DNA of 64,000 nt, taken from the NCBI GenBank assembly GCA_903902745.1, contig CAIUWA010000011.1, forward strand, positions 124,001 to 188,000, written 5' to 3'. The position numbers were made by a program, and so were the translations under genes. This DNA comes from an uncultured Opitutia bacterium (GTDB taxonomy: Bacteria; Verrucomicrobiota; Verrucomicrobiia; Opitutales; Opitutaceae). How positions within the stretch are numbered: the stretch's first letter is position 1; every line of letters starts with the position of its first letter. The notes under the pieces are model-generated. The model was not told the origin of the DNA, made no database searches, and was given only the letters and a program-made list of their open reading frames with translations. This document shows positions 24,301 to 43,249 of this stretch, piece after piece.

Positions 24301-24500
24301 AGTTTCTCGACAATCTCTCGCGAAAATTGCTGGCTTACGCCCTCGGTCGCACACTCCTCCCTTCCGATGATCCCGTCGTCGCCACCATGATCCAGAGGCT
24401 TGCTGCCGATGGCTATCGCTTCGACACCATGATCGACCAGATCGTGACCAGCCCGCAGTTTCTCCACAAACGCGTTGCACCCGACTTCGCCAACAACTGA
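21333..24500 (+). CDS. DUF1592/DUF1588-type planctomycete cytochrome C protein (long form)
   Basis: A 1055-residue protein with an N-terminal membrane anchor or signal (about 5-25) and a heme site CVTCHGG (Cys61-His65). It then has DUF1587 (ARRLSNAEYDYTIRDLTGVD), a long middle region (about 210-610) not found in the paralog at 15418, DUF1595 (FAGRASRRPLAPAEAESLL), DUF1592 (YELASRLSYFLWSSLPDQEL), DUF1588 (RTSPVKRGHWVVTKLLGERI) with a second heme-like site TCASCHNKFDAMG, and DUF1585 (LLAYALGRTLLPSDD). The middle region shares no motif I recognise. It is paired with the DUF1552 gene 3 bp downstream. Role unknown; heme and export point to periplasmic redox work. Confidence 0.9.
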   Translation: MRKSFALLVVAPLVICIGALAWFDYALPRGAPTPAVAVERMPQLLEARFRSNVHPFIETYCVTCHGGDKPKAQLDLSSYATVDSIAKDPRRWSLVLERLKAGEMPPDDAEKQPTAAERKPIVGWIWTMGALEAKRHANDPGVVLARRLSNAEYDYTIRDLTGVDIRPTKEFPVDPANEAGFDNSGESLAMSPALVQKYLEAARLVADHVVFTPDGLGFAPYPVTTYEDRDKYATKRIIDFYKRQGVSIATRYDHYMAQSLDYADFFAAAWRFQNRSVLGRGDAALADFAQDAKLSPKYLATLWATLTAPGGDSGPIAALQARWKKLPAPSAGKEPADLRDGCAALRDFILNVRPLVRMKYENLVPNGRIVATGSQTMVLWKDRQYAENRTTYAGNALTLDLGKIVKTDPAMAVPTAAAARARYEESFKRFCAVFPDAFVVYERARMFLDRERDILSDLEGHRYLTAGFHSQMGYFRDDQPLYDLVLDTGQQQELDRLWSEFNFVTQTPFRQLKDFIWFERAEPPSIMVDSSFADFRAADDDLLSEPKLKRLAEVYFYRAENTRVAIPPPDQGQGIALNYRAPAPGATVDIPPGFTEFKLDATMLGAIRDYFSDMNARIRALEQAQRAAEPLQLKALVAFAGRASRRPLAPAEAESLLAFYRSLRAEKLTHEDAIRESIASVLMSPAFTFRVDLPNPSSPIARNGVQPLSDYELASRLSYFLWSSLPDQELMAHAAAGDLHTPDVLLAQARRMAKDERVRGLATEFAGNWLDIRRFEEHNAVNRDRFPAFTNELREAMFEEPIRFTEDLVQRNGSVLDFIYGHYTFVNATLAKHYGMPAPASGTDWVRVDDADKYQRGGLLPMAAFLTKNAPGLRTSPVKRGHWVVTKLLGERIPAPPPNVPVLPTDETKLGNLTLRQTLAQHRADKTCASCHNKFDAMGLVFEGFGPVGEVRTTDLAGRPAETSAVFPDGSEGTGLAGLQAYFRTKVQSEFLDNLSRKLLAYALGRTLLPSDDPVVATMIQRLAADGYRFDTMIDQIVTSPQFLHKRVAPDFANN

Positions 24501-24503
24501 TCC

Positions 24504-25847
24504 ATGAGCAATTCACTTCCCTGCAACGGTCATCAGTTCACCCGCCGCCGCTTCCTTCACGGGGCCGGCGTCGTCATGGCGCTCCCTTGGCTCGAGTCGC
24601 TCCCCGTCTGGGGCGCGGAGCCGATGACCAAGCAGGGCACGCCCGCCGCCAGCCCGAAACGTCTCGCCGTGATGTTCATGGCGAACGGCATCAACCAGAA
24701 GTACTGGACCGCGAGCGGTGCCGGAGCGGAGATGCAGCTCGGCGAGAGCCTTGCCCCGTTGGAGCCGGTGAAGACCAAGATCAATTACGTCAAGGGACTC
24801 TTCAACCAGGCCGCGGTCGGCGTCGGCATTCATCCCGGCATGACGGGCAACCTGCTTTCGGGCGCGCCGCTCACCAAGGGCGCCGAGCTCCACGGTGGGG
24901 TCAGCATGGATCAGGTGCTTGCCGCCCGCATCGGCGACCAGACCGTGCAGCCGAGCATGGTGCTGGGCTGTGAACAGCCGGTCACCGGTTACCACGAGAC
25001 CAACTTCTCGATGGCCTACAGCTCCCACATCTCGTGGCAGACGCCGACCTCGCCGGTGCCGATGGAGGTCTATCCCTCGCTCGCCTTCGACAGCCTCTTC
25101 GACAATCGCGGCGCGCAGCGCAACCAGAGTGTCCTTGATCGCGTAAAGGACCAGGCCGACACCCTCGGCCGTCAGGTGAGCGCCGCCGACAAGGCCAAGA
25201 TCGACGAATATCTTACCAGCGTTCGCGAAGTGGAGAAGCGCGCCGAAAACATGCGCGCCGCGAAAGCCAAGGCGGACGCCAAGGGCCAGGGAGCAGACAT
25301 CCCCGTGATCGCCATGAAGCGCCCGGAGAACGGCCTCCCCGAGGACATCCGGGAGCACATGCGCCTCATGTGCGACATCGTTGCGCTCGGCTTCCAGACC
25401 GACAAAACCCGCCTGGCGACCCTCCTGCTCTGCCGCGACATCTCGGGCTTGGTTTACCCCTTCCTCGACGCGAAGCTCGCCCACCATCTCGCGAGCCACG
25501 AGGACGACGATGCGTTCATGCGCATCAACAAATATTACGTGAGCCAGTATGCCTACCTCATCCAAAAACTGGCCGCGATGAAGGAAGGCGAAGGCACCGT
25601 GCTCGACAATTCCTGCATTGTTTTCATGTCGAACATGTGGTCCGGCAAAAACCACGACAGCGGCAAAGTGCCGCTCCTCACCGCCGGCTCACTCGGCGGC
25701 ACGTTGGAAACGGGGCGGGTGCTCGACTACTTGGACGCCGGCAACGAAAACCGGAAACTCTGCAGCCTCTATCTTTCGCTCATGGACCGGATGGGCGTTA
25801 AGCTCGACAAGTTCGGCGACGCCGACGCTCGGCTCGCGGGGATTTAG
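24504..25847 (+). CDS. DUF1552 exported protein
   Basis: A 447-residue paralog of the protein at 18194. Its Tat-like signal (FTRRRFLHGAGVVMALPWLE) is near residues 11-30. Conserved features include FMANGINQKYWT, a YHETNFSMAYSSHISW region, IDEYLTSVREVEKRAENM, LGFQTDKTRLATLLLCRD and FMSNMWSGKNHDSGKVPLL. It begins 3 bp after the DUF1592 stop, so it is almost certainly co-translated with it. The two DUF1592+DUF1552 units are clearly diverged, so they may handle different substrates. Confidence 0.88.
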   Translation: MSNSLPCNGHQFTRRRFLHGAGVVMALPWLESLPVWGAEPMTKQGTPAASPKRLAVMFMANGINQKYWTASGAGAEMQLGESLAPLEPVKTKINYVKGLFNQAAVGVGIHPGMTGNLLSGAPLTKGAELHGGVSMDQVLAARIGDQTVQPSMVLGCEQPVTGYHETNFSMAYSSHISWQTPTSPVPMEVYPSLAFDSLFDNRGAQRNQSVLDRVKDQADTLGRQVSAADKAKIDEYLTSVREVEKRAENMRAAKAKADAKGQGADIPVIAMKRPENGLPEDIREHMRLMCDIVALGFQTDKTRLATLLLCRDISGLVYPFLDAKLAHHLASHEDDDAFMRINKYYVSQYAYLIQKLAAMKEGEGTVLDNSCIVFMSNMWSGKNHDSGKVPLLTAGSLGGTLETGRVLDYLDAGNENRKLCSLYLSLMDRMGVKLDKFGDADARLAGI

Positions 25848-27416: not shown

Positions 27417-27878
27417 TCAGCTCTTTGGCGTGAGCGGCGTGTAATAGTAGATGTCCGTGTAGGTGACCGGGACCTTGCCGGGATTGCGCAGGAAGGTGGT
27501 CGCGCCGGAGGCGAGAAAAATGACCGAGCCGGGGCCGCCGGTCTTGGACGTGCCGTTCCAGTTCGCCTCGAGGGTGCCTTCCTTGACGATGACGATCTCC
27601 TCCTGCAGGTGCAGGGTGGGCGGATTGCTGCGCTCGCCGGGATTGAGGGTGGAGATATGGCAGTGAATCTTGTCGAGAGTGGTCGTGGTGCCCTCGAACA
27701 CCATGCGGCGCTCGCCCGTCGGCAGCGTGGCGGGCGTCAACTTTGTCCAGTCGTAGAGTTCGGAGGTCAGTTTTTCCAAGGCTGGGGCGGGAGCGGCCGC
27801 CTTGGGTGCCGACGGGGTTTGGGCATAGAGCGCCCCGATGAGGGCGGCGGAGAGGGCGAACGGAATGAGGAATTTCAT
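27417..27878 (-). CDS. Secreted cupin-domain protein
   Basis: A 153-residue protein with a Sec signal peptide (MKFLIPFALSAALIGALYAQ). It has one cupin barrel with motif 1 around LNPGERSNPPTLHLQEEIVIVKEG and motif 2 around PGSVIFLASGATTFLRN. The usual His cluster of motif 1 is partly replaced (PPTLH), so metal binding may differ. It lies downstream of the DapA/enolase/PQQ genes on the same strand and could bind a sugar or sugar acid in the periplasm. Function is inferred from fold only. Confidence 0.8.
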   Translation of the reverse strand: MKFLIPFALSAALIGALYAQTPSAPKAAAPAPALEKLTSELYDWTKLTPATLPTGERRMVFEGTTTTLDKIHCHISTLNPGERSNPPTLHLQEEIVIVKEGTLEANWNGTSKTGGPGSVIFLASGATTFLRNPGKVPVTYTDIYYYTPLTPKS

Positions 27879-28180: not shown

Positions 28181-29290
28181 TTAGGCCTTGAGATAGGGCT
28201 TCATGTAGGTGTTGAGAGCGTCGCGGATTTCCTTGTCGGTGAGACGGGGACCGCCGGCGGCGCGTCCGCCGCCACCACCGCCGCCGCCTTTTCCTGCTGC
28301 TCCACCGCCCGCGCCACCACCGCCGGCTTTCCGGGACTTGTAGCCGGGCTTGAAGACTCCCCGAATGGCGAGGACGTCGCTCCAGTCGGCGGTGCCGAGG
28401 CTGGCGAAGGCCATGATGCGGCCGAACATGTCGAAGGCCTGCTGACGCTTGCCTGCATGCCAGAGGTCGAAGGTCTGGGCGTAAACGTCAGCCAGTCCCG
28501 TGTACGGGCAGTGCCCGACGAAGCCCAGTTCCATCTCGTTGATCATCGTGCGCACGCCCTGGCCCGAGAACACATGGAGCTGGTCGTTGGTCTTCTGGCG
28601 CAGCTCGGCAATGCGCTCGAGCGGAACGCCGGCCTCGTCCTTGACCTGCCGCACAGTGGGGATCGTTTTGAACATCTCGACGATCAGGTCGACGCTCATG
28701 TTGCCCTGGCTCTGGACGAACAAGGGCAGTGCGGTCATGCGGCCGATCTGCTGGTAATAGTCGAGGAGGACCTTTTCGTCCGTCACATTTGCGGGCGGGA
28801 GCGCGCAGAGGGCATCCGCCCCCGTCTTGGCGGCGTGCTTCGCGTAACGTTCAACCTCCGCGGAGTCCCCGGTCTTCGACTGGACTCCGATCACGAGCGT
28901 CGTCGCCCCACCCTTGTTGGCAGCGACGAGGGCCTCGGCTCCAGCCATGCGTTCCGGCTCGGTGAGCATGGTCCAGTCGCTGGCGATCTGCGGCCAGATG
29001 AAGCCGTGCACACCGCCGCGGTTGCAGAACGGCATTTGCGCCGCCAGCGACTCGAGGTCGAGCTTGTCGTCCGCGGTGAACGGGGTCTGCCCGATGGGGA
29101 AGAGGCCGCGCAGCTTCTTCGGCCCGGGGCTCAGATCCATGGGCGGAGCGGTGCCCGCGCCGAAGTCGACCGCCTGGGCGCTGCGGGACGACAGGGCGAG
29201 GCCCAGGGCGCCCGCGCCCAGATAGTGGAGGAAGTCCCGCCGGGGCAGGCTGGTGGCGGGGCGGTCGGAGGAGGGTAATCTAGGATTCAT
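28181..29290 (-). CDS. Tat-exported DapA-family (DHDPS-like) lyase
   Basis: A 369-residue protein. A twin-arginine signal (LPRRDFLHYLGAGALGLALS, about 15-34) is followed by a DapA/NanA-type TIM barrel (LRGLFPIGQTPFTADDKLDLE, GGVHGFIWPQIASDW). The Schiff-base Lys is present (VRQVKDEAG). The family's usual catalytic Tyr (VTPYY in DHDPS) is replaced (CALPPANV), so chemistry probably differs from dihydrodipicolinate synthase; aldolase or dehydratase action on a keto-sugar acid is likely. Near residues 317-345 a Gly/Ala/Lys-rich insert interrupts the C-terminal helices. It shares a strand with the enolase-superfamily and PQQ genes. A paralog lies at 34796. Confidence 0.85.
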   Translation of the reverse strand: MNPRLPSSDRPATSLPRRDFLHYLGAGALGLALSSRSAQAVDFGAGTAPPMDLSPGPKKLRGLFPIGQTPFTADDKLDLESLAAQMPFCNRGGVHGFIWPQIASDWTMLTEPERMAGAEALVAANKGGATTLVIGVQSKTGDSAEVERYAKHAAKTGADALCALPPANVTDEKVLLDYYQQIGRMTALPLFVQSQGNMSVDLIVEMFKTIPTVRQVKDEAGVPLERIAELRQKTNDQLHVFSGQGVRTMINEMELGFVGHCPYTGLADVYAQTFDLWHAGKRQQAFDMFGRIMAFASLGTADWSDVLAIRGVFKPGYKSRKAGGGGAGGGAAGKGGGGGGGGRAAGGPRLTDKEIRDALNTYMKPYLKA

Positions 29291-29346
29291 GGCTTGTTTT
29301 TCTATTCCGGAATTTTTCCGGCATGGGGTGGTGAAACGCAGGGAAA

Positions 29347-30663
29347 TCAGCGGTCGATGCGGAGCATCATCTTGTCGAGCACATCACGGTCGAGTTCAAT
29401 GCCGAGGCCCGGGCCCTTCGGCGCATTGACGTAGCCCTCCTTGTCGACGCGGAACTGGCCCTTCAGGTAGGGGCGGTCGGAAAGCGTCTGCGGGTAGGGC
29501 ATCTCGAACCAAAAGGTGTTGGGCAGGGCTAGCTCGATTTGAAAATGCGCCGCCAGGTCGAACCCGTTGCCCCAATTGTGGGGGGTGCAGGGCATGCCGA
29601 ACGCATCGGCCAGCTGGCCGATGCGGAAAGAGCCGGTGATGCCGCCGACGTTGTCGGCGATCAGCCGGACGATATCGAGCGCGCCGCGGCGGATATACTC
29701 CGCGTAGGCCTGGATCGAGTAGAGGAACTCGCCGACCTCGATGGGCACGGTCAGCTTCTGGCGCAGCTCGATGAGTCCCTCGATGTCCGACTCCGGGATC
29801 GGGTCCTCGAACGAGACATAGCCATATTCTTCCAGCGCACGCCCGACCTTCAGGGCCTCGAAGACATTGTAGCGCTGGACCGGATCGAACAGGAGGGTGA
29901 ATTCCTCGCCCATCGCCTTGCGGACCTCGCGGATCTCCTCGATGTGGCCGACGTAGGCGGGAATCGCCCCGCCCGTGGGGGTGGTGTGCTGGCCGCCGCC
30001 GGGATGGATCTTGTAGGCCTTGAGCCCGTCCGCCTTCGCCTGCAGCGCCTGCGGCGCGAAATCCTCGATCGCCGCCAGGTGCAGGGAACTACCGTAGGCG
30101 AGCAGCTTGTCCTTCGTCCCGCCGAGCAGCTTGTAGATGGGCCGGTTGACAGCCTTGCCGAGAATATCCCACAGGCAGATATCAATGACGGCGGCGTGGT
30201 AATTCGTTTCACCCGCACTGCCCAGCTTTATGCCGCGAGGATAGCCAAACCCGCCGACAAAAGGGGTCGCGCCGCCGAAGCCCGTCGGGCCGCGCTGGGC
30301 GGCGGCGGCCAGGGCCGGCAGGAGATCGAGCACATTCTTCCCGAGGCAGACGCCCTTCGCGTATTCGAGCCAGCCGGTGCCGCCCACACGGTTGCCGAGC
30401 GTATAATTGGCTTCGATCCCGCTGTTGGTGACGATCGAGACGATTTCCCCGCTTTCCGGACTGTTGATGCGGCGGATGGCCGGGCCAAGGTTTGCCACAT
30501 AAACCTTCACCTCCTTGATGGTGAGGTCGGGCAGATCGGACGGCTTCACGCCCACGGCGTCAGCGGCGGCCCGGACGGGATTGGAAAGAACCGATGCTCC
30601 GGCGACCGCGCCAAAGGCGGAAGCCGCGAAAAAATCCCGGCGTGATAGTGGTCGTTTCAACAT
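29347..30663 (-). CDS. Tat-exported enolase-superfamily (mandelate racemase-type) dehydratase
   Basis: A 438-residue protein with a Tat signal (PLSRRDFFAASAFGAVAGAS, about 5-24). The capping domain starts near 45 (LTIKEVKVYVANLG), then a TIM barrel with a K-x-H motif (LKAYKIHPGG), metal ligands Asp (LLFDPVQRY), Glu (VSFEDPIPES) and Glu (PIEVGEFLYS), and a catalytic-type His (CTPHNWGNG). This architecture dehydrates sugar acids (aldonates) to 2-keto-3-deoxy acids. Export of such an enzyme is unusual; most are cytoplasmic. It lies between the PQQ dehydrogenase upstream and the DapA-like lyase downstream. Substrate not deducible. Confidence 0.87.
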   Translation of the reverse strand: MLKRPLSRRDFFAASAFGAVAGASVLSNPVRAAADAVGVKPSDLPDLTIKEVKVYVANLGPAIRRINSPESGEIVSIVTNSGIEANYTLGNRVGGTGWLEYAKGVCLGKNVLDLLPALAAAAQRGPTGFGGATPFVGGFGYPRGIKLGSAGETNYHAAVIDICLWDILGKAVNRPIYKLLGGTKDKLLAYGSSLHLAAIEDFAPQALQAKADGLKAYKIHPGGGQHTTPTGGAIPAYVGHIEEIREVRKAMGEEFTLLFDPVQRYNVFEALKVGRALEEYGYVSFEDPIPESDIEGLIELRQKLTVPIEVGEFLYSIQAYAEYIRRGALDIVRLIADNVGGITGSFRIGQLADAFGMPCTPHNWGNGFDLAAHFQIELALPNTFWFEMPYPQTLSDRPYLKGQFRVDKEGYVNAPKGPGLGIELDRDVLDKMMLRIDR

Positions 30664-31056
30664 AAGATGATCCTGGTTGAGGTTGCGTTATTTCACGGTT
30701 GAACCGGTGTCCGGCCTCGAAAGGTCGCGAAGATCCAAGGCGCCGCCCTCAGCTGGTGGCCGGAAAACAAGGGCGCGAAAGAAACTTTCTCCATGGGGTA
30801 CACGAGATGGGGGCTTCGCTCTCCCTTTTCGTATTCTTGCCCGTCGTTGCGGTCAAGTGCCGGCTGAGGTAGGCGTTGATTTCTTCCGGATTGAAAAGAT
30901 GGAACGCGTTGCGGTGCCCGCCGCAGATTCCAGCGAAGGCTGGGGTCCCCAATGCATTGCCTAGGCCGGTCGAAGGCGCATGACCCTTGGCAACGGCAAA
31001 GGCCGCGACCAAGGTCGGTCCCTACAAGATGGTGAGCGTGCCAGCGCTTGGCTGGC
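30664..31056. other. 393-bp intergenic region with repeat debris
   Basis: It contains a Family C half-element (31000-31033, GGCCGCGACCAAGGTCGGTC then CCTAC), a short CCAGCCTTCGCTGG-type palindrome (about 30937-30950) and, on the minus strand around 30850-30935, an open stretch reading GHRNAFHLFNPEEINAYLSR. That stretch looks like the tail of a former alpha/beta protein. No intact gene seen. Confidence 0.45.
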
Positions 31057-33363
31057 TTACTGCGGCAGGGCGAAGGACAGGAAATTTGAGCCCGCGGCGA
31101 TCGCGACGTACTGCTTCCCATCAATAGCGTAGGTCATGGGAGAGCCTTTGAAGGGGTGGGCATGCGTCTCGAAGTGCCAGAGATATTTGCCCGTCTTGGC
31201 GTCGGCCGCGGCAAATCCGCCGCTGCTCTCGCCAAAGAAAACCACGCCACCGACGGTCGAGAGCACCCCCGAGTAGTTGTTTTCCGCGACGCCGGGGAAC
31301 GCGATCTGCCAGGCTTCCTTGCCGGTATCGATGTCGAAGGCCCGCAGGATTTTCTTGGCCGGATCGGCGGGATTGTTGTAGCGGCCGAAACCCCCGTTTT
31401 CCGCTTTGCGATAAACGCCGTAGTCCTCGACCGTCATCACATAATAGAGCCGCGTGGCGGGATTGAAGGCGGTGGAATACCAGTTCGTCGCGCCGCGCAC
31501 CGCCGGCGCGGTTTTTACGCCGGCCGTGGTCACTTCGTTGTTGGGCAGCAGATCCGGTTTCCAGGTCGTTGGGTTGATGCCAGTCGCCCAAGTCAGCTTG
31601 TCCACCATTCTGGTCGCCATCACCGGCTTGCCGGCGGCGCGATCGAGGACGTAGAGAAAGCCGTTCCGATTCGCATGCAGCAGGAGCTTGTGATCCTGAC
31701 CCCGCCACTTGGTATTCACCAGCACGATGGGCTGGTTCGCGTCCCAGTCGTGCACGTCATGCGGATTGTATTGGTAGTACCAGAGAATTTTTCCGGTCTT
31801 CGGGTCGATCGCGAGGTCGCAATTGGTATAGAGATTGTCGCCGATGCGTTCATCACCATCGGTGTCGGGGTGGGGGTTTCCCGTGGCCCAGTAGAGAATA
31901 TTTGCGTCCACGTCCATGGCTCCACTGAGCCACGTGCCTCCGCCACCCAGCGCGAGGGCGGTCCCTTTCCAAGTGTCGGCGGCAGGTCCGGTTTCCCCGA
32001 CTTTGGGAATGGTCCAAAGCCTCCAGGCCAGTTCGCCGGTCGTCGCCTTGTAGGCGGCGATGAACCCGCGGATGCCGTTGTCGCCACCGCTCACCCCGAC
32101 GGCCACCAGGTCGCCCACGATGAGCGGGGCCGAGGTGCCGCCGTAGGCCTGCCTTTCCTCCGGTGCATAAACTTCCCAAAGCAGGGCGCCGGTCAGCCGG
32201 TCCAGCGCCAGCAATCGCGCATCGTCAGTCATGTAGAAAACCCGGTTGCCCAGCACCGCGACGCCGCGGTTGACGCCGATTGCGGCGTCGCCCGAGACGA
32301 TGGACCGCGGGCTCTTCGGGCGTTCATACCGCCAGATTTCCCGGCCGGTTTTGCCGCTCAGGGCAAAGACCTGGTTGTTGCCCGTCACATACATCACCCC
32401 ATCGACGACGACGGGAGTTGCTTCGAGGCCGGCGAAGGGCACGGAGAAACTCCACTGCAGCTGGAGCTTTGAAACATTCTTCTGGTCAATCTGGTCGAGA
32501 CTGCTGTGGCGATTGCCGTTGAGATTGCCGTTGTAGCTTGGCCAGTCGCCTTTTTTGGGATGCGTGATCGCCTCCATCTCCGCTTGGGCCGTGGGCGCCT
32601 GCGGCTCGGTCATTCCGCCGACCGTGATACCCTTGAGGCTGCCCAGATAGGCGATCAGGTGGTTCATCTCGGCGGCCGTGCCCTTGAAGACGGGCATGGC
32701 GGGATTTTTTTCCGGCGTGATTTTGCGATACTCACTGTCGACCAGCAAATGCAACTTCCCGTCGTCGGTCTGCAGCACGACGTCGTGGCTGCCCTGCGCC
32801 CGGGCAAAGCCCCGCAGCGTGCTGCCATTGTTCAGCTCGACGGAAACCAGGTCATAGCCCTCCGTGATGATGGCGCCGGGATCGACGAGGGACTGCCGCA
32901 ATTCCGTCTCCCGCAGCCTCCGTCCCACGGTGGTGAGATTCGGCCCGTTGGAACTGCCCCGGCCTCCGGCGACATGACAGGTGGAGCACTGCGCGCTGCC
33001 AAAGAAAAGAAGTTCGCCGGTCTTCGGGTCCCCCCCGCCGGCGTTCATGGCCTGCAGCGCATTGAGCGACCGGATGTAATTCACCAGAGTCTGGATGTCC
33101 GCGGCCGCGATGTCGTCGAACGCGGGCATCTTGGCCTTCCCCTTGCCGATGATGCGGGTCAGGTCGCTGTCCGACAGGGTGAGGAAATGATCGGGATTGA
33201 TCAGCGTCGGCCCGCGCTCGGCTCCGCGTGCATCGTTGCCGTGGCAGTCGGTGCAGTTTTCTTCAAAGAGCGGCGGCTGGGGCAGGGCGCCGGCATCAGC
33301 CGCGGCGCCCATGGCAGGGAAGGCGCCGAGGATGATCGCGAACCAGGGGAGGATTCGTTTCAT
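31057..33363 (-). CDS. PQQ-dependent dehydrogenase with two N-terminal cytochrome c domains
   Basis: A 768-residue exported protein (Sec signal about 1-22). It has two c-type cytochrome domains, CTDCHG (Cys37-His41) and CSTCHV (Cys126-His130), then from about residue 290 an eight-bladed quinoprotein propeller (WPSYNGNLNGNRHSSLDQI, YWATGNPHPDTDGDERIGDN, PHDVHDWDANQP with the likely catalytic Asp, HANRNGFLYVLDRA). The enzyme would oxidise an alcohol or aldose in the periplasm and pass electrons through its hemes. Cytochromes at the N-terminus reverse the order of classical quinohemoprotein alcohol dehydrogenases. First gene of a probable minus-strand operon with the enolase-superfamily and DapA-like genes. 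Its leader faces the divergent gene at 33552. Confidence 0.9.
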   Translation of the reverse strand: MKRILPWFAIILGAFPAMGAAADAGALPQPPLFEENCTDCHGNDARGAERGPTLINPDHFLTLSDSDLTRIIGKGKAKMPAFDDIAAADIQTLVNYIRSLNALQAMNAGGGDPKTGELLFFGSAQCSTCHVAGGRGSSNGPNLTTVGRRLRETELRQSLVDPGAIITEGYDLVSVELNNGSTLRGFARAQGSHDVVLQTDDGKLHLLVDSEYRKITPEKNPAMPVFKGTAAEMNHLIAYLGSLKGITVGGMTEPQAPTAQAEMEAITHPKKGDWPSYNGNLNGNRHSSLDQIDQKNVSKLQLQWSFSVPFAGLEATPVVVDGVMYVTGNNQVFALSGKTGREIWRYERPKSPRSIVSGDAAIGVNRGVAVLGNRVFYMTDDARLLALDRLTGALLWEVYAPEERQAYGGTSAPLIVGDLVAVGVSGGDNGIRGFIAAYKATTGELAWRLWTIPKVGETGPAADTWKGTALALGGGGTWLSGAMDVDANILYWATGNPHPDTDGDERIGDNLYTNCDLAIDPKTGKILWYYQYNPHDVHDWDANQPIVLVNTKWRGQDHKLLLHANRNGFLYVLDRAAGKPVMATRMVDKLTWATGINPTTWKPDLLPNNEVTTAGVKTAPAVRGATNWYSTAFNPATRLYYVMTVEDYGVYRKAENGGFGRYNNPADPAKKILRAFDIDTGKEAWQIAFPGVAENNYSGVLSTVGGVVFFGESSGGFAAADAKTGKYLWHFETHAHPFKGSPMTYAIDGKQYVAIAAGSNFLSFALPQ

Positions 33364-33439
33364 AGACGGAAAGAGTGGAGCGGTCGGGCGGCATTACGCA
33401 ACTCCAACTGCCCGCGACCATGCGGTGGCGGCCGGCGAG

Positions 33440-33470
33440 TTGTTGAACGTTGACATCATTAATGAACGCG
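33440..33470. promoter_or_regulatory. Candidate promoter/operator in the PQQ / propeller divergent gap
   Basis: An AT-rich patch in the 188-bp gap contains TTGACA (33450-33455) and partly symmetric GAACGTT / AATGAACG words. It could carry a promoter or regulator site for the divergent genes. Support is weak. Confidence 0.25.
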
Positions 33471-33551
33471 CCTCGGATTTCGCGGCTTTCACTGAAAGAG
33501 AACCCCCGATCCCCGGTTAGAGAAACACCAATGAATTGGAGAAATTCGACC

Positions 33552-34781
33552 ATGCGCATCACAAAATTGTTTCGGAACTCAGTTATCATTTTGGCCGGCA
33601 CCCTGTGCCTGTGGCCGACCGTCACCTGGTCGCAGGTTCCCTCTTACGTGCGGCCGGCCACCCGGAACACCGGCGGCACCCGGCCGCCGGCGGAGAAAGA
33701 ACTGATCTATGTGACCGTCCCGGGAACTCTGGAGGGAACATGGGATAGTGCCGGCACGGGAATCGTGGTGCTGGATGTCGCGAACAACTTTGGATTCGTT
33801 AAGCGGATTCCCACCTGGGACGTGCCGGCGAGCGCGTTCCCCATGCAGGTGGCCGGGGTCACGGCCAGTGTCGAGAACCAGATGATTTACGTCGCGGCGC
33901 GCGGCAAGCTCGGCGCCTGGGACTTGAAGACGGAAAAGATGGTCTGGGAAAACGCCTTTGACGGTAGCTGCTGCGAGCGTCCGCAAATGGCGCCCGACAG
34001 CTCGTTCATGTACGTGGGGTCGGACCTCAAGGATTTTTGGTATGTCGTGAATCCCAAGAACGGCGAATTGATCACGACCGTCCGGTCCCCCCTCAGTCCC
34101 AACGCCCACAACCTGAACCTGAGCCATGACGGCAAGACCGCCTTCATGTCGCCCAACGGCAAGGTCATGGGCATCGCCGACACGACGACGAACACGCTCA
34201 CCAAGACGATCCCGTTTCCGGACAACGTCCGGGTCTTCGTGCTGAATCACGATGACTCGCTGATCTACTCCAACCAGAACAACCTGCTCGGATTCGTGAT
34301 CGCCGATGTGAAGACGGGAGCGATCCTCCACAAGGTGGAGGTAACGGGTTTCCCCTTTCACGAGATCTGGGATGTCACACCGCGCCCGCGCATTCCGCAC
34401 GCCTGCCCGAGCCACGGTATTGCCCTGGTCAACAACGAGACGGAGGTCTGGTGCGTCGATGGCATCAACAATTACATCCACATTTTCGACAACACCCAGA
34501 TGCCGCCGAAGCAAATCGCGGGAGCGAGCATCAAGACCAATGGGGGAGCCTACTGGATCACCATCGGCTTGGATGGAAAGCTGGCCTACTGCTCGTCCGG
34601 GGATGTCATCGACACCAAGACCCACAAGATCGTCGGCCAGATGAAGGATGAATACGGCCGCATTCTGCGCAGCGAGAAGCTCCTGGACATGCTCTTTGTC
34701 GGCGGGAAACTGACCCGGGTGTCGAATCAGTTCGGCAATGGCTCGATTGCCGTCGTCGAGCCGGCCTCGACCAAGAAGTAA
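33552..34781 (+). CDS. Secreted YncE-like beta-propeller protein
   Basis: A 409-residue exported protein (signal MRITKLFRNSVIILAGTLCL, cleaved after TWSQ). It has seven or so repeats of the YVTN/YncE style (IVVLDVANNFGFVKRIP, LGAWDLKTEKMVWE, FWYVVNPKNGELITTV, GIADTTTNTLTKTIPFP, GFVIADVKTGAILHKVEV, IHIFDNTQ). Such propellers bind ligands or partners; no catalytic motif is visible. It is divergent from the PQQ dehydrogenase and 14 bp upstream of a DapA-like gene, so it may be a periplasmic binding component of the same pathway. In-frame Mets at 33450 and 33531 lie upstream, but the signal peptide favours 33552. Confidence 0.8.
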   Translation: MRITKLFRNSVIILAGTLCLWPTVTWSQVPSYVRPATRNTGGTRPPAEKELIYVTVPGTLEGTWDSAGTGIVVLDVANNFGFVKRIPTWDVPASAFPMQVAGVTASVENQMIYVAARGKLGAWDLKTEKMVWENAFDGSCCERPQMAPDSSFMYVGSDLKDFWYVVNPKNGELITTVRSPLSPNAHNLNLSHDGKTAFMSPNGKVMGIADTTTNTLTKTIPFPDNVRVFVLNHDDSLIYSNQNNLLGFVIADVKTGAILHKVEVTGFPFHEIWDVTPRPRIPHACPSHGIALVNNETEVWCVDGINNYIHIFDNTQMPPKQIAGASIKTNGGAYWITIGLDGKLAYCSSGDVIDTKTHKIVGQMKDEYGRILRSEKLLDMLFVGGKLTRVSNQFGNGSIAVVEPASTKK

Positions 34782-34795
34782 TCCCTCACATCCCC

Positions 34796-35857
34796 ATGCA
34801 AGCGCCCGGCCCCACGCGCCCTGGAGAAGTCAGCCGCCGGAACTTCCTGCTCGGCCTCGGGGTCGGCGCCGCCGGGCTCGGCCTGGCCCCTCGTGGTTTC
34901 GCGGCTGCGGCTGCGGAACGCATGGCGGCCAAGCGCCTTCGCGGCATTTTTCCCATCGCCCAGACGCCGTTCACCGCGGCGGACAAACTCGATCTCGAAT
35001 CCCTGGTCCGCCAGGTGGATTTCATCGAGCGTGGCGGCGTGCACGGCTTCGTGTGGCCGCAGAATGCGAGTGAGTGGTCGACCATGACCGATGACGAGCG
35101 GCTGGTTGGCATGGAGGCGGTGGGCCACGCCGGCGCAAAGTTGCGGACGGCGATCATCCTCGGCGTGCAGGGGACGGACCTCGCGGCGGTGCGCAAGTTC
35201 GTGAAGCAGGCCGAGCGCGTCGGCGCGGATGGCATCATTTCCCTGCCGCCCTCCGAGACGGCCGACGCTAAGACCATCCTGCAGTACTTCCAGGAGGTCG
35301 GGAAGATGAGCAATCTGCCGCTGTTTGTGCAGGCGGTGGGCAACGTGGAGGTGGATCTCCTGCTTGAGCTTTACCGCACGGTGCCGACGATGCGTTACGT
35401 CAAGGACGAGACGGGCGATCCGTTGCAGCGCGTCGTACCCCTGCGCGAAAAGAGCCACGATGAGATCAAGGTCTTTTCCGGCGGACACGGCCGGAAGCTC
35501 ATTGAGGAGATGGAGCTGGGTTTTACCGGCACCATGCCCGCGGCGTCGCTCGCGGATCTTTATGTGACGACCTTCGACCTCTGGCATGCGGGCAAGAAGG
35601 ACGCGGCGAAGGAAAATCACGCCCGGACGCTCGACGCGCTCGCCACAATGCTTCGTTACGGCACCGAAGGCATGAAATACGTTCTTCAGCTTCGCGGCGT
35701 GTTCAACACCTACGCGGCGCGGAAGCCAGTGGCCCGCGGTCTCACCGATGCGGCTAAAATCGCCACGGGTGGAGCGAAGACCCAGCCGCTTGACGAAGAG
35801 GGCAAGAAGATCCTACAGGCGCTGGTCACTTCGCTGAAGCCGTACTTCAAGGCGTAA
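34796..35857 (+). CDS. Tat-exported DapA-family (DHDPS-like) lyase, second copy
   Basis: A 353-residue paralog of the protein at 28181. Tat signal VSRRNFLLGLGVGAAGLGLA (about 13-32), then the barrel (LRGIFPIAQTPFTAADKLDLE, GGVHGFVWPQNASEW). The Schiff-base Lys is in MRYVKDETG; the DHDPS Tyr position reads SLPPSET, again without Tyr. The Gly-rich insert of the other copy is absent; the corresponding segment is KPVARGLTDAAKIATGGAK. Both copies end in a similar tail (MKPYLKA / LKPYFKA). Two exported copies on divergent operons suggest a heteromeric enzyme or two substrates. Confidence 0.85.
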   Translation: MQAPGPTRPGEVSRRNFLLGLGVGAAGLGLAPRGFAAAAAERMAAKRLRGIFPIAQTPFTAADKLDLESLVRQVDFIERGGVHGFVWPQNASEWSTMTDDERLVGMEAVGHAGAKLRTAIILGVQGTDLAAVRKFVKQAERVGADGIISLPPSETADAKTILQYFQEVGKMSNLPLFVQAVGNVEVDLLLELYRTVPTMRYVKDETGDPLQRVVPLREKSHDEIKVFSGGHGRKLIEEMELGFTGTMPAASLADLYVTTFDLWHAGKKDAAKENHARTLDALATMLRYGTEGMKYVLQLRGVFNTYAARKPVARGLTDAAKIATGGAKTQPLDEEGKKILQALVTSLKPYFKA

Positions 35858-38065: not shown

Positions 38066-39004
38066 ATGCACTCATCCCGTCTTCGCCCCCTTGCGATACT
38101 TCAGCTCCTGCTCGCCGGCGCGTCTTTGCTCGGCCCCGGCCGGCTCACTGCGGCCGACGTCACGGCCGTTCCGCCCACCATTTTTGTGATGGGCGACTCG
38201 ACGGCCCGGAACCCCGGCAATGGCAAAAACGGCCAGCCTTGGGCCGGGTGGGGTACTCCCCTGGCCGATTATTTTGATCCCGCCCGCGCGGTCGTCGCGA
38301 ATGTCGCCCACGCCGGCACGTCGAGCCGCACCTACTATAACAATCCCGCGGACTGGCCGCACGCCCTGCCGCTGATCAAGGCGGGTGATTTCGTGCTCCT
38401 CGTCTTCGGCATCAATGATGGCGGCCCGCCGACTTCCGTTTCCGCCCGCGGCTCGATCCCCGGCATCGGCGATGAGACCGTCGAGTTGAAGCGCCCCGAC
38501 GGCACGGTCGAGATTGCCCACACCTATGGCTGGTACATGTCCACGATGGCCACCGCGGCGCGGGACAAGGGGGCGCGCGTTTACCTGCTGACAGTGACCA
38601 CGCGCAACATCTGGACGAATCCCAAGGTGAAGTTCAACGACGCCACGCCCGCCGGGCCGCTGCCGGCGGACTACGATCCGAAGGAGGACCGCATCGAGCG
38701 CGGCACGGCGAACGGCAAATACACCCAGTGGACCAAGGACATCGGGGCGAAGCTGCACTTGCCCGTGCTGGACCTGACCAACCTGTGTGCGGACAAATAC
38801 GAAAAAATGGGGCGGGAGACGGTCAACGCCTTATACAGCGACCACAACCACACCTATGTGCCCGGAGCGGACATTGTCGCCGCCTCGATTGTCTCCGGCC
38901 TGAAGGCGTTCAAGGGCAGCCCGTTCCTCCCGTTGCTCTCGGACAAGGGCCGCGCGGTGGCCTCAGCGGACGCCAGGTACCTGAACGAAAATCCCGCGCC
39001 CTGA
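38066..39004 (+). CDS. Rhamnogalacturonan acetylesterase-type SGNH hydrolase
   Basis: A 312-residue exported protein (Sec signal to about residue 30, ending LTAAD). SGNH blocks: GDSTARN (Ser), HAGTSSRTY (Gly), FGINDGGPP (Asn) and DHNHTYVPGA (Asp-x-x-His). The length and the GDSTxxN/NDGG pattern match the RGAE (CE12-like) family, which removes acetyl groups from the rhamnogalacturonan backbone of pectin. It sits shortly upstream of a GH106 gene, consistent with pectin use. A second RGAE-like gene is at 52713. Confidence 0.87.
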   Translation: MHSSRLRPLAILQLLLAGASLLGPGRLTAADVTAVPPTIFVMGDSTARNPGNGKNGQPWAGWGTPLADYFDPARAVVANVAHAGTSSRTYYNNPADWPHALPLIKAGDFVLLVFGINDGGPPTSVSARGSIPGIGDETVELKRPDGTVEIAHTYGWYMSTMATAARDKGARVYLLTVTTRNIWTNPKVKFNDATPAGPLPADYDPKEDRIERGTANGKYTQWTKDIGAKLHLPVLDLTNLCADKYEKMGRETVNALYSDHNHTYVPGADIVAASIVSGLKAFKGSPFLPLLSDKGRAVASADARYLNENPAP

Positions 39005-39080
39005 TTTTTGGCCACGAAGGCACGAAGACACGGAGGTCAATTCATTCCTTGCTTTGGGTCTTCGGGCCTCCGTGGCCAAT
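39005..39080. repeat. Intergenic inverted repeat (GGCCACGAAGGCACGAAG type)
   Basis: Left arm GGCCACGAAGGCACGAAGAC and right arm (GGGTCTTCGGGCCTCCGTGG, then CC) are imperfectly inverted. It directly follows the acetylesterase stop. Confidence 0.65.
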
Positions 39081-39132
39081 CCGCCGGTTGCATTGGAGGC
39101 TTGACCAGCACGCCGCATTGCGGGCCCCTTGT

Positions 39133-39372
39133 ATGATGGCGACACCGGCCGACGAGAATTTCAACGATTACAAGAAGGCGGAGAAAAAAGCCCTCGAAAT
39201 CCTCGCGGCGATGAAGGCCGTGAGCCCCAAGAAGGTGGACATCGAACTCGCGCTGCTCGTGGCGATCTTTGAGCTCCACAAGGGCACGCTTCCCGCGGAC
39301 ACCATCGCGGCCATCGTGCAGGGACATCTCAAGGCGCTAATTCCGTTTTATGCGGGGAAGACCGCCGGCTAG
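39133..39372 (+). CDS. Small unrecognised helical protein
   Basis: A 79-residue, mostly helical, charged protein (FNDYKKAEKKALEILAAMKA, KKVDIELALLVAIFELHKG, ADTIAAIVQGHLKALIPFYA). It has no signal or membrane segment and I do not recognise the family. Its regular codon use and clear helices argue for a real gene. An alternative Met is one codon later (39136). Confidence 0.6.
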   Translation: MMATPADENFNDYKKAEKKALEILAAMKAVSPKKVDIELALLVAIFELHKGTLPADTIAAIVQGHLKALIPFYAGKTAG

Positions 39373-39462
39373 CCGCGGCTCGGTTTTGAAAGCTGTCTTC
39401 GACTGATTCGCGCCGCATCTTTTACCTGTCAGTTGCGTCGTGCTACTGACCCCCTTTGCCCC

Positions 39463-42228
39463 ATGAAAATTACCCCCATGAAAATGTTGCCCCTTCTCGC
39501 CCTGCTCGCTGGTTCGTCCCTGCTGTCCGGTGCGGAGCAGCCCTGGCGGCAGGTCACCCAGCCGACGGTTGCCGAGGCGGCAGCCAGCTTTCCCAAGCCC
39601 GCCCGCGAATATGGCGCCATCAACTGGTCCATCTGGGGCGGACCCCAGAGCAAGGAAAAGGTTCTCGGCGAGATTGAGCGGATGCAGGCGAATGGAAACT
39701 ACGTCTACATGATCAACAACTCGCGCGGGCTCCAGCCCAAGTACTTTTCGCCCGAGTATCTCGATTTGGTCAAATTCACCGTCGATGAACTGAAAAAGCG
39801 CGGGATGAAACTGTGGATCGAGAACGACGCGGGCTATCCGGACGGCATGGCGGGCGGTCTCATCAGCAAGGATTATCCCGAGCTCGGCATGCAGGCACTC
39901 GTCGCCGATGCGCGCTACTCGGTGGCCGCCGGCCAGACGCTGAGGATTCCGGTGCCGCCCGACACGCTGGGCATTCTCGCTTACAACCGGCAGGCCGGTC
40001 CGGCCAAGGCCCTGCCGCTTCCGGCCGACGGCCGCTTCCAATACACCGCGCCGAATCCCGGCTCGTCGGAGATCATCTTCGTGCGCCACGTCTTGCGCAG
40101 CTCGCCCACCCGCTACACCAACCGCGAGGACGGCACCGCGGACAAGGACAGCCTCTATTCGCTGATCGACTATCTCAATCCCGAGGCGACCCGCACTTAC
40201 CTGAAGCTCATCCACGAAACCTACGAAAAGATCGTCGGCGACGAGTTCGGCAAGACCATCCTGGGCTTCCGCGGCGACGAACCCGACTACACGGGCTTCA
40301 TGCCCTGGACCCCCAAGCTGCTCGAGACCTTCCGGCAGACGAAGGGCTACGATCTCCAGCCTTACCTGGCGCAATTCTTCGCCCCGGAGTTCACGCCCGA
40401 GGTGCTGCGCGCGAAGGCGGATTACTGGGATGTGTGGAGCGCGATGTTCCGCGACAATTATTTCAAGCCGCAGCAGGAGTGGTGCAAGGCGCGCAACATG
40501 GACTTCATGGTGCATCTGAACCACGAGGAACTCATGCTGAATCTCGCCCTCGGCGAGGATCTCATCCGCAACGAGGGCTCCTTCTTCCGCGCCATGCGTC
40601 AGGTGGGAGTGTCCGGCATCGACAACCTCGGCCAGATCGGGCCGGGCATTGTCGCCGATTTTCCAAAACTCGCCGCCTCGACGGCCCACTTGAATGGCCA
40701 CCCGCAGGTTTGGACCGAATCGGGCGGCACCCTGCACCAGGCGGGCAAGTTTGTCACCGACTACCAGTTTGTGCGCGGCGTCAATTTTATGAACATCCGC
40801 GGCTTGACCAACCCGGTGGCCGACAGCGCCCAGCTGTTGCTCAATCCTTCCACCACGACCGCGTGGTATGTCAACCGCGCCAGCTACCTGCTCGCAAGCG
40901 GTAGGCCGGGCGCCCAAGTCGCGCTGTTTCATCCGACGGACAGCATGTGGATGGGCGACAAGGAATCCGACGATGTCACGGTCAAGCTAACGACCCAGCT
41001 GATGGAGCATCAGATCGACTTCGACCACATCGACACGGATGCCCTGGTCACGGACTGCACGCTTGCCGACGGTGGCCTGAAGAATCTGAGCGGGCAGGTC
41101 TACCGCGGAATTGTCATCCCGACCTCGACCGTGATCGACAAGCGGATGCTGGACCGGCTGCGGGCGTTTGCCGCGGCCGGCGGCAAGGTCGTTTTCGTCG
41201 GACGCACTCCCACGATGGTCGTTGGCCGCAGCTTCATGAATCCCGAGCCCGGCGCGCCGGATCTCAGCTTCGCCACGCTCGAGCCCAAGCCGGAGATCAC
41301 CGACCGCGTGGTCGCGGCGTTGCCGCCCTCGGACGTCCGGCTCAGCGCCTCGTGCCCGCCGATCAAATACATCCGCCGCACGCTCAAGGATGGTGACGTA
41401 TATTTCTTCTTCAATGAGTCCAACCAGTTACAGTCGCTCACGGCGACCTTGGCTGGCACCGGGCAGGTCCAGGTGTGGGACGCCACTCGCGGGACGGTTC
41501 ATCCACTGGCGTCGGTCGCGAAGGCCGCGGGCAGCGTGACGGTGCCGCTGACGCTCGGGCCGCAGGAGTCGCGCTTTATTGTAATCGGCCCGCTGCCGGC
41601 TTCCGCCGGCCAGCCTCTGCCGTCGGTTTCAACCAGTCAGTCCCTCGCCGAATTGAGCGGGGACTGGTCAGTGACACTGGGCGCCAAGCAGGTGACCTCG
41701 GCACTCAAGTCATGGGAAGATCTGGGCGTCACGTCGTTTGCCGGCACCGCGGTCTACAAGCGCGAATTTACCGCGCCCGCCTCCCTGCCGCAGGGCAAGC
41801 GGGTCTATCTCGACCTGGGGAATGCGCATGAGGATGTGCGTGTCCGCTTCAACGGTTCCGATCTCGAGGCCAAGGCTTGGCCGCCGTATCTTTGGGACGT
41901 AACCGGGCTGATCAAGGGTGGGGCCAACACGCTTGAAGTGCAGGTGCAGATGCCGCCCGCGGGTGGTGGCCGTGGTGGGTTCGGTGGCGCCGCCGGCCGC
42001 CGCGGCGGAGCCGGAGCTGCTGCCGCTCCCGGTGCGCCTCGTGGATTTGCCCCGACGGGAGTTCCCGGTGGGCTGACGGCCGACAACGGTGGTGGACGTG
42101 GCCGCGGTGGTCTCGGGGCTGCCGGCGGCGCGGCGGTACCGGCGGGTGGCCGCCAAGGCAATGCGCCCGCCGAACTCGCGAGTGTCGCTTCCGGATTGCT
42201 CGGCCCGGTCCGCGTGCTCGCGCAATAG
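39463..42228 (+). CDS. GH106-like alpha-L-rhamnosidase
   Basis: A 921-residue exported glycoside hydrolase (Sec signal to about residue 23). The N-terminal region matches GH106-type enzymes by eye (NWSIWGGPQSKEKVLGEIER, MKLWIENDAGYPDGMAGGLI). The barrel continues through GFRGDEPDYTGFMPWTPKLL and MVHLNHEELMLN (candidate acidic residues). A jelly-roll, sugar-binding-like domain lies at about 735-920 (TAVYKREFTAPASLPQGKRV). In that domain a ~70-residue Gly/Arg/Ala/Pro-rich insert (nt about 41955-42165) separates NTLEVQVQ from the closing SGLLGPVRVL. In the family the enzyme releases rhamnose from rhamnogalacturonan. Family is likely; substrate is inferred. Confidence 0.8.
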   Translation: MKITPMKMLPLLALLAGSSLLSGAEQPWRQVTQPTVAEAAASFPKPAREYGAINWSIWGGPQSKEKVLGEIERMQANGNYVYMINNSRGLQPKYFSPEYLDLVKFTVDELKKRGMKLWIENDAGYPDGMAGGLISKDYPELGMQALVADARYSVAAGQTLRIPVPPDTLGILAYNRQAGPAKALPLPADGRFQYTAPNPGSSEIIFVRHVLRSSPTRYTNREDGTADKDSLYSLIDYLNPEATRTYLKLIHETYEKIVGDEFGKTILGFRGDEPDYTGFMPWTPKLLETFRQTKGYDLQPYLAQFFAPEFTPEVLRAKADYWDVWSAMFRDNYFKPQQEWCKARNMDFMVHLNHEELMLNLALGEDLIRNEGSFFRAMRQVGVSGIDNLGQIGPGIVADFPKLAASTAHLNGHPQVWTESGGTLHQAGKFVTDYQFVRGVNFMNIRGLTNPVADSAQLLLNPSTTTAWYVNRASYLLASGRPGAQVALFHPTDSMWMGDKESDDVTVKLTTQLMEHQIDFDHIDTDALVTDCTLADGGLKNLSGQVYRGIVIPTSTVIDKRMLDRLRAFAAAGGKVVFVGRTPTMVVGRSFMNPEPGAPDLSFATLEPKPEITDRVVAALPPSDVRLSASCPPIKYIRRTLKDGDVYFFFNESNQLQSLTATLAGTGQVQVWDATRGTVHPLASVAKAAGSVTVPLTLGPQESRFIVIGPLPASAGQPLPSVSTSQSLAELSGDWSVTLGAKQVTSALKSWEDLGVTSFAGTAVYKREFTAPASLPQGKRVYLDLGNAHEDVRVRFNGSDLEAKAWPPYLWDVTGLIKGGANTLEVQVQMPPAGGGRGGFGGAAGRRGGAGAAAAPGAPRGFAPTGVPGGLTADNGGGRGRGGLGAAGGAAVPAGGRQGNAPAELASVASGLLGPVRVLAQ

Positions 42229-42250
42229 TCGCGGGGTTTGCGTCAAATTC

Positions 42251-42305
42251 GTAGCAGCCGAGGTAACGAGGCTGGGCCTTGTTGCGTGATCACCGCCGGT
42301 GATAG
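42251..42305. repeat. Family B partial repeat
   Basis: GTAGCAGCCGAGGTAACGAG matches the outer arm at 36681 and is followed by GGGCCTTGTTG and a short ACCGCCGGTGAT palindrome. The opposite arm is missing. Confidence 0.65.
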
Positions 42306-42357
42306 CGCGATGCTTCAGTCGGTGTCTTTTTGCGTCCGGAGTGCGGATAGAAGCACT

Positions 42358-42759
42358 CTACTGCTTGGAATATTCCACGTCGGTGACGTGTTCGAGCCAG
42401 GCGGCCGAGTTGCCCTCGGCGTCCGTCTGCTGGACCGCGAGGTGGACCATCACGCCACCGGGAGCGGCGCCATGCCAATGACGCTCGCCGGGTTCGAACC
42501 ACACCGTGTCACCGGGATGTAGCTCAACCACGTTGTCACCGGCCCGCTGCACCCGGCAAATTCCGGAGAGGATGTGCAGCACCTGCCCCGCGGGATGCGT
42601 GTGCCACGCCGTCCGGGCCTTGGGCTCAAAGGTCACCCGCAGTACGCGCACGCGGGAGGTATTTGGCCCGGCGGCGATCTCATCCAGCCACACCGTGCCC
42701 GTGAACCACTCGGCGGGACCGCGCTTGGAGACAGGGATGCCGGCACGGGTGATGTTCAT
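42358..42759 (-). CDS. Cupin-domain protein
   Basis: A 133-residue single cupin. Motif 1 is present (AWHTHPAGQVLHILSGICRV, with two His and a Gln where Glu is usual) and motif 2 (PGDTVWFEPGERHWHGAAPG). It resembles the quercetinase-like or carboxymuconolactone-type (R)-mandelonitrile-lyase group of cupins, which bind a divalent metal. Cytoplasmic. The start at 42759 (MNITRAG) is favoured; 42771 is also open. Function not determined. Confidence 0.85.
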   Translation of the reverse strand: MNITRAGIPVSKRGPAEWFTGTVWLDEIAAGPNTSRVRVLRVTFEPKARTAWHTHPAGQVLHILSGICRVQRAGDNVVELHPGDTVWFEPGERHWHGAAPGGVMVHLAVQQTDAEGNSAAWLEHVTDVEYSKQ

Positions 42760-42816
42760 CGCCCGCCACACTAGGAATCCTGCAGGCTGCTTGGCAAGGC
42801 GGGCGGCTGGTCAGTT

Positions 42817-42910
42817 TGTTGTAGCGGCGCTCTATGAGCGCCGCTCTTCCCAGGCCGGCGGTCATCCACCGGCGCTGAAGCTATGGCGGACAAGTAGACC
42901 GCCGCTACAA
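42817..42910. repeat. Family B palindromic repeat
   Basis: TTGTTGTAGCGGCGCTCTAT is followed by GAGCGCCG, CCGGCGGTCATCCACCGGCG, CTGAAGCTATGGCGGACAAG and GACCGCCGCTACAA. It is a longer version of the inner palindrome at 36681 and shares the GCTATGGCGGACAAG insert with 28019 and 57851. Confidence 0.85.
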
Positions 42911-42946
42911 TTTTCAAATCGAGCCACTACCGAAATTCTGGACGGA

Positions 42947-43150: not shown

Positions 43151-43186
43151 GGATTTGTCGGTATTGGAGGAAGCTCGGAGGTGTCG

Positions 43187-43246: not shown

Positions 43247-43249
43247 GCG

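Follow-up and report, generated by a model that had tools for sequence, protein, structure and literature searches.

A possible exported cassette for non-phosphorylative sugar-acid dehydration in two divergent gene groups of an Opitutia bacterium

In the classical pathways of sugar-acid breakdown, dehydration takes place in the cytoplasm. Pseudomonas and the acetic acid bacteria oxidize sugars in the periplasm by means of quinoproteins, and oxidation is the only step that they export. The locus described here raises the question of whether the dehydrations too can be carried out beyond the cytoplasmic membrane. It lies in a 64,000-nucleotide stretch, hereafter the window (G000:C11:124001-188000), of the genome of an uncultured Opitutia bacterium (3.29 Mb in 52 contigs, 98% complete). 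Two divergent gene groups encode a quinohemoprotein, an enolase-superfamily protein and a DapA-like protein (DapA1) on the minus strand, and a beta-propeller and a second DapA-like protein (DapA2) on the plus strand. A first-pass annotation of the same letters had named these five genes and a secreted cupin, all of which were found in the window, the cupin outside the interval 28181-35857 to which the annotation referred.

Our preferred answer, which we regard as evenly balanced between right and wrong, is that the locus encodes an exported cassette for non-phosphorylative dehydration of sugar acids, similar to the lower part of the Weimberg (L-arabinose oxidative) route and operating outside the cytoplasmic membrane. 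As judged from its residues, the enolase-superfamily protein, which carries a twin-arginine (Tat) type signal, would remove water from an aldonate or a similar sugar acid to yield a 2-keto-3-deoxy acid. The two Tat-type DapA proteins, by the same kind of evidence, would bind this acid as a Schiff base on their lysine and remove a second water, the glutamate two positions downstream (Lys+2) acting as base, and the product would be a 2-oxo-acid semialdehyde rather than pyruvate and an aldehyde. The diheme quinohemoprotein would oxidize either the sugar before the first dehydration or the semialdehyde after the second, its hemes passing the electrons to the respiratory chain, and the resulting acid would be taken up into the cell. 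The features concerned are the following, in window coordinates.

28181-29290, minus strand: DapA1, Schiff-base enzyme resembling L-2-keto-3-deoxyarabonate dehydratase; Tat-type signal; Q193 in place of the aldolase Tyr, K217-D-E219
29347-30663, minus strand: enolase-superfamily protein (mandelate racemase subgroup), predicted sugar-acid dehydratase; Tat-type signal; K218, H220, D260, E286, E312, D337, H362, E387
31057-33363, minus strand: quinohemoprotein with an N-terminal diheme cytochrome part and a propeller of the type that binds pyrroloquinoline quinone (PQQ); Sec-like signal; CTDCH and CSTCH; TIGR02603 domain; D539, D541
33364-33551, no strand assigned: intergenic spacer from which the two groups diverge; likely promoter region
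33552-34781, plus strand: secreted beta-propeller (open reading frame from 33450); Sec-like signal from ATG 33552
34796-35857, plus strand: DapA2, second enzyme resembling L-2-keto-3-deoxyarabonate dehydratase; Tat-type signal; Q179, K203, E205

The DapA proteins carry most of the argument. They are 49% identical, match the Pfam family DHDPS (dihydrodipicolinate synthase; 3.8e-14 for DapA1, 1e-21 for DapA2) and both possess the Schiff-base lysine reported by the first-pass annotation (K217 and K203). According to the available text of PMC9795676, L-2-keto-3-deoxyarabonate dehydratase has Lys171, Gln143 replacing the aldolase Tyr, and two proposed bases, Glu173 for C3 and Glu200 for C5; Glu173 occurs in no other enzyme of the DHDPS/NAL (N-acetylneuraminate lyase) group, and the Tyr is the base of the cleaving enzymes, the aldolases. 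Thirty-three rows of exported DapA proteins, two of them from the window, were aligned. Every readable row, 32 in all, has the Lys, the Gln and the Lys+2 Glu, and the other (L034) is a broken gene with a gap at the catalytic positions. Both glycines of the GXXG motif are replaced (by Q or V, and by S) in 32 of the 33 rows, with a gap in one, and the region mostly reads PQxAS. Since the aldolase Tyr and GXXG are lost and the three dehydratase residues are present instead, the exported DapA proteins are expected, from their sequences, to remove water rather than cleave. The same residues bear on the route proposed by the first-pass annotation, in which PQQ-dependent oxidation of an aldose, dehydration and aldol cleavage by DapA would form an Entner-Doudoroff-like sequence in the periplasm. 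Gene content and signal motifs are compatible with such a route, but the cleaving base (PMC9795676, available text) has become Gln and GXXG is gone in all 32 readable rows, and we consider this route highly improbable.

Sequence comparisons point in the same direction. Among solved chains, DapA2 scores best with L-2-keto-3-deoxyarabonate dehydratase (8.5e-16), and a family profile built from 29 of the 33 rows retrieves a chain of this enzyme, 7c0c, as its best solved hit (6.6e-32); DapA1 by itself shows a slight preference for several DHDPS entries (1e-8 versus 6.1e-8). The predicted structure of DapA2 (predicted local distance difference test score, pLDDT, 86) also fits this dehydratase best (Z 35.4, root-mean-square deviation 2.1, 287 aligned positions); DHDPS and N-acetylneuraminate lyase entries are tied at Z 34-35, and the fold was not retained as a discriminator. 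As a control, 15 other DapA-family proteins were collected from 16 loci of related genomes (L014 gave no match): 11 have the Tyr and lack the Lys+2 Glu, and four have Gln and the Lys+2 Glu, two of these (L005, L006) adjoining an enolase-superfamily gene. A tree of 48 rows, which has SH-aLRT (Shimodaira-Hasegawa-like approximate likelihood-ratio test) support only and some long branches, splits in two: 12 rows form a Tyr group and the other 36, the Azospirillum enzyme among them, a Gln/Glu group. This best solved match (L-2-keto-3-deoxyarabonate, or L-2-keto-3-deoxypentonate, dehydratase of Azospirillum brasilense; 7c0c, 3fkk), which turns L-2-keto-3-deoxyarabonate into 2-oxoglutarate semialdehyde, is cytoplasmic in its host and shares the Lys, the Gln, the Lys+2 Glu and the fold; the exported proteins differ from it by a Tat-type signal, PQxAS in place of GXXG and the absence of Glu200, and are 24% identical to it over the structural alignment. 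A third exported DapA is encoded elsewhere in the window's genome (L050:9303-10424, on G000:C14), with relatives in G002 (L048), where it adjoins a second diheme quinoprotein, and in G034 (L051). Tandem Tat-type DapA genes, one bearing the Tyr and one of the dehydratase type (Gln, Lys+2 Glu), were seen in an acidobacterial locus (L069:6875-8984).

The enolase-superfamily protein is recognized over its C-terminal part (Pfam MR_MLE_C, 3e-52) and barely over its N-terminal part. K218, H220, D260, E286, E312, D337, H362 and E387 are invariant in all 11 rows aligned. The metal ligands announced by the first-pass annotation are thus in place: we take D260, E286 and E312 to be these ligands, K218 to be the lysine of strand 2 and H362-D337 to be the catalytic pair, following the superfamily mechanism. 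The nearest NCBIfam models are gluconate/galactonate dehydratase (NF040790, 150.7 bits for a cut-off of 750) and archaeal arabinonate dehydratase (NF040866, 131.4 for 650); no named dehydratase model of NCBIfam reached its cut-off, the best, NF040790, falling far below it. The protein resembles these dehydratases (1rvk, 4hch) in metal ligands, lysine, His-Asp pair and fold, and departs from them in its scores far below the equivalog cut-offs, its Tat-type signal and the weak Pfam match of its N-terminal part. Its predicted structure (pLDDT 79) matches 4jhm (Z 41.9) and 4hch (Z 41.6); many mandelate-racemase-type entries match, dehydratases and cycloisomerases alike, and the fold was discarded as a discriminator here too. 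We predict a sugar-acid dehydratase. Used as a query, this protein gave 47 matches in G022, a genome of 2.6 Mb from the same order.

Do these enzymes leave the cytoplasm? DapA1 begins with the Tat-type sequence PRRDFLHYLGAGALGLALSSRSAQA, and DapA2 matches the Pfam TAT_signal model (4.1e-4) at 20.6 bits, just below its cut-off of 22.7. A twin arginine followed by a hydrophobic stretch occurs at the N-terminus of 32 of the 33 DapA rows, three of which were read by eye after the script pattern had caught another site; the lone exception is L040, whose N-terminus is disturbed. The enolase-superfamily protein carries SRRDFF, and S-R-R is present in all nine rows that cover this part (the window and eight relatives), two of the 11 rows beginning downstream of it. 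The quinohemoprotein and the beta-propeller start with Sec-like signals, and the genome of the window contains two TatC matches. The Tat-type signals that had been reported on the enolase-superfamily and both DapA proteins, and the Sec-type signal on the quinohemoprotein, were therefore recovered, and both the dehydratases and the quinohemoprotein are presumably exported across the inner membrane.

The association of these genes extends beyond the window. A pattern search returned 26 loci, of which one (L046, 28% identity) did not belong to the family and was left out. The named relatives closest to the window come from metagenome bins assigned to Opitutae, Opitutaceae, Verrucomicrobia and, in two cases, Akkermansia muciniphila, followed by Acidobacteria, and an origin of the window in Opitutae is accordingly the most likely. 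In 18 of the 25 loci, which come from Verrucomicrobiota, Acidobacteria and one alphaproteobacterial bin, the exported DapA has a partner gene no more than 3 kb away; L045 is included in this count by a weak quinoprotein only. Within this distance, an enolase-superfamily gene is found in 12 loci, of the window type in eight (L021, L026, L030, L031, L036, L037, L038, L039) and of another type in four (L027, L028, L033, L042); a diheme quinoprotein of at least 47% identity in four (L021, L024, L039, L041), weaker quinoproteins being present near DapA in L027 and L045; and a propeller in six (L021, L022, L024, L025, L029, L041). A rough binomial estimate for the enolase-DapA linkage arising by chance gives 1e-18 from the four enolase-superfamily matches that the genome of the window contains and 5e-14 from a more generous 15 matches per 5 Mb, both figures ignoring kinship among loci. 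Of 149 evenly sampled Acidobacteriota genomes, five (the centre included) have a match at 1e-50. The DapA matches of the four new loci all keep the Gln and the Lys+2 Glu, and a second Tat-type DapA in one (L069) keeps the Tyr; L071 has quinoproteins beside DapA and L072 an enolase-type gene with no obvious Tat motif. The oxidation and dehydration gene set with export signals that the first-pass annotation had recognized is confirmed as a linked set, and two phyla share it in part. In the tree, DapA1 and DapA2 of the Opitutae occupy two separate places among acidobacterial sequences, several forks being moderately supported, which suggests transfer from Acidobacteria, perhaps twice; the cassette may thus be acidobacterial in origin.

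The quinohemoprotein has the two hemes expected from the first-pass annotation (CXXCH at residues 37 and 126) and a PQQ propeller match (1e-77). Its scores suggest an alcohol-dehydrogenase type rather than a glucose type: 426.3 bits with the methanol/ethanol-type model TIGR03075 (cut-off 480.05) and 169 with the glucose/quinate type (cut-off 832.65). It shares the propeller and most PQQ contacts with the type II quinohemoprotein alcohol dehydrogenase 1kv9 and with PedH (6zcv); equivalents of E55, R109, T159, W243, N261, D303, R331 and N394 are kept (presumably methanol dehydrogenase numbering). It differs from both in its two N-terminal hemes, and the PQQ site has changed in that the metal Glu is an Asp, the vicinal Cys pair is gone and the equivalent of W476 is a Tyr. 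A lanthanide-type D-x-D is present (D539-W-D541; D-F-D in PedH), and an extra Asp two residues past the catalytic Asp is tied to lanthanide binding in the available text of PMC5487730. A further quinoprotein relative, 46% identical over the propeller, lies at G000:C48:769-3089, with a heme-region match containing an internal stop on the same contig.

Where would the cofactor come from? The search for PQQ synthesis comprised pqqC and pqqE; pqqA, pqqB, pqqD and the importer gene PqqU were not searched for. No pqqC was found in 29 relatives, including the window's genome (0 of 29), and among 288 genomes of the phylum eight have matches, the window's genome not being one of them; the six above the cut-off served as positive control, and none of 14 built-in control genomes matches. 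Nor was pqqC found in G034 or in the genomes of L021, L024, L039, L041 and L045, whose completeness is unstated, the control G044 being the only positive of the seven. None of six carriers tested has pqqE above the cut-off, which only the controls G044 and G295 exceed (two of eight genomes); weaker matches occur in all eight and in the 14 built-in controls, as expected for a radical-SAM model, the window's genome scoring 70.7 bits for a cut-off of 381. The cell thus probably does not make PQQ and would need to scavenge it, which is plausible; the alternative is an empty site. In that case the protein would hold no PQQ and serve in electron transfer or binding, and the enolase/DapA pair would work alone. 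Its best NCBIfam model is indeed acido-empty-quinoprotein group A (TIGR04528; 458.4 bits, below the cut-off of 650), and the missing synthesis genes of the carriers tested and the loss of the vicinal cysteines and one Trp agree with this view. On the other hand, eight PQQ-contact equivalents and the lanthanide-type Asp have been kept. In the available text of PMC12124388, five Verrucomicrobia and 17 Acidobacteria possess PqqU without PQQ synthesis, and diffusion is suggested as the supply of other bacteria; acidobacterial PqqU is limited there to Vicinamibacteria, a class not represented among the acidobacterial groups named here, and this limit speaks for an empty site. We judge the empty site unlikely, if by no means negligible.

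If PQQ is bound, the quinohemoprotein could make the aldonate or oxidize the final semialdehyde. The latter sharpens the preferred dehydration cassette into a fixed order of enolase-superfamily protein, DapA and quinohemoprotein, the semialdehyde giving a 2-oxo-dicarboxylic acid such as 2-oxoglutarate and the quinohemoprotein replacing the cytoplasmic semialdehyde dehydrogenase. The higher score with the methanol/ethanol type (426 versus 169 bits) speaks for this order, as do the DapA-quinoprotein pairs with no enolase gene nearby (L024, L041, L071) and the description of PQQ alcohol dehydrogenases as systems oxidizing both alcohols and aldehydes (PMC5487730, available text). Nine of the 12 DapA-enolase loci, however, have no quinoprotein within 3 kb and would need a partner elsewhere, and we see this order as possible but doubtful. 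The most complete version, in which double periplasmic dehydration is followed by oxidation of the semialdehyde by a diheme quinohemoprotein dependent on lanthanide and scavenged PQQ, with direct transfer of electrons to the respiratory chain and import of the 2-oxo-dicarboxylic acid, appears to us distinctly unlikely as a whole.

Several observations weigh against the dehydration cassette in any order. The column aligned to Glu200 contains H in 17 rows, G in 14, W in one and a gap in one, and the preceding column has no Glu either. In seven of the 25 loci (L023, L032, L034, L035, L040, L043, L044), several of them cut by contig ends, DapA lacks a partner within 3 kb, and in two of the four new Acidobacteriota loci its neighbours include no quinoprotein and no enolase. 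The full trio of DapA1, enolase and quinoprotein is found at close similarity only in the window, in L021 (Opitutae, same contig as G002:C22), in L049 (G034, same family) and in L039 (Terracidiphilus, Acidobacteria, a metagenome bin). A major facilitator superfamily (MFS) gene lies near the cluster in these last three, best matching the D-galactonate transporter model (239 bits in L048, the G002 copy of the L021 place, 205 in L039 and 248 in L049, below the cut-off of 395); no such gene stands beside the cluster of the window, whose MFS gene at 51269 best matches a lactate transporter model (115 bits, cut-off 320). The carrier genomes tested have no pqqC. Finally, the enolase model also matches cycloisomerases (4hpn, Z 39.1; 5olc, Z 38.8), and dehydration is not the sole reaction possible. 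This last point opens another reading, in which the enolase-superfamily protein is a cycloisomerase, or the substrates are not sugar acids but, for example, other hydroxy acids or the side chains of plant phenolics. Both superfamilies include activities on other substrates, and the DapA and enolase proteins match characterized members only distantly. Yet NCBIfam places the enolase protein nearest to sugar-acid dehydratases, the best solved hit of the DapA family is one too, the three MFS neighbours in relatives resemble galactonate transporters and pectin-degradation genes lie further along the window; we find this reading improbable.

The exported dehydration cassette would share with the Weimberg and other oxidative non-phosphorylative pentose pathways the expected oxidation and the first and second dehydrations of sugar acids, and would differ from these routes in the export signals on all predicted enzymes, the enolase-superfamily first dehydratase and a quinohemoprotein in place of NAD(P) enzymes. 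Sugar oxidation would take place outside as in Pseudomonas and acetic acid bacteria, with the difference that the dehydratases also carry export signals. A literature search, mostly at abstract level and covering few subscription papers, found no description of an exported enolase/DapA sugar-acid route. Opitutae and Acidobacteria are common decomposers in soil and freshwater. If the cassette functions as proposed, part of their central sugar-acid breakdown would occur outside the membrane, where its products would be exposed to diffusion and to neighbouring cells, and this chemistry would be tied to scavenged PQQ and perhaps to lanthanides. The proposal also gives a testable function to an exported family known to Pfam only as 'dihydrodipicolinate synthetase family'.

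The intergenic region 33364-33551 is likely a promoter region; a promoter scan found no sigma-70 consensus there (0 against 1.4 expected). Terminator-like sites number 13 for 7.9 expected, none informative. A 393-base gap with no clear gene (30664-31056) separates the quinohemoprotein and enolase genes, and their co-transcription across it is uncertain. For the beta-propeller, ATG 33552 is preferred over TTG 33450 because the Sec-like signal begins there. The propeller named by the first-pass annotation is present; its sole match worth noting is a surface-layer protein (2.4e-5), and a relative adjoins DapA in six of the 25 related loci. Further features lie on either side of the cluster.

27417-27878, minus strand: small secreted cupin; Cupin_2, 2.2e-8; signal-like N-terminus; outside the interval 28181-35857

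This cupin was named as part of the same system. The gene and its signal-like N-terminus exist; it has no counterpart in loci L021-L052 by tblastn at 1e-8 and was dropped, being probably not part of the system. The interval 21333-25847 encodes a Tat-type DUF1552 protein and a large secreted protein whose CXXCH motifs resemble those of cytochromes. Homologues of the DUF1552 gene and its partner are found close to the clusters of L021 and L029 too, but genes of this kind seem to be widespread in these genomes, and we claim no link. Pectin-type genes follow downstream at 38066-49956 (GDSL esterases, a GH106 alpha-L-rhamnosidase and GH28; GH, glycoside hydrolase family) and could supply the cluster with sugars or sugar acids, proximity being the sole link. 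A connection with microcompartments was considered and rejected, BMC genes being near the cluster in relatives only and the three BMC matches of the window's genome lying on another contig. In these relatives, a signal-less DapA gene paired with a gene for a BMC-domain shell protein adjoins the cluster (L048:3151-4805 in G002, L021:1-983 and L039:6639-8266), and the L039 copy of this DapA keeps the aldolase Tyr and GXXG.

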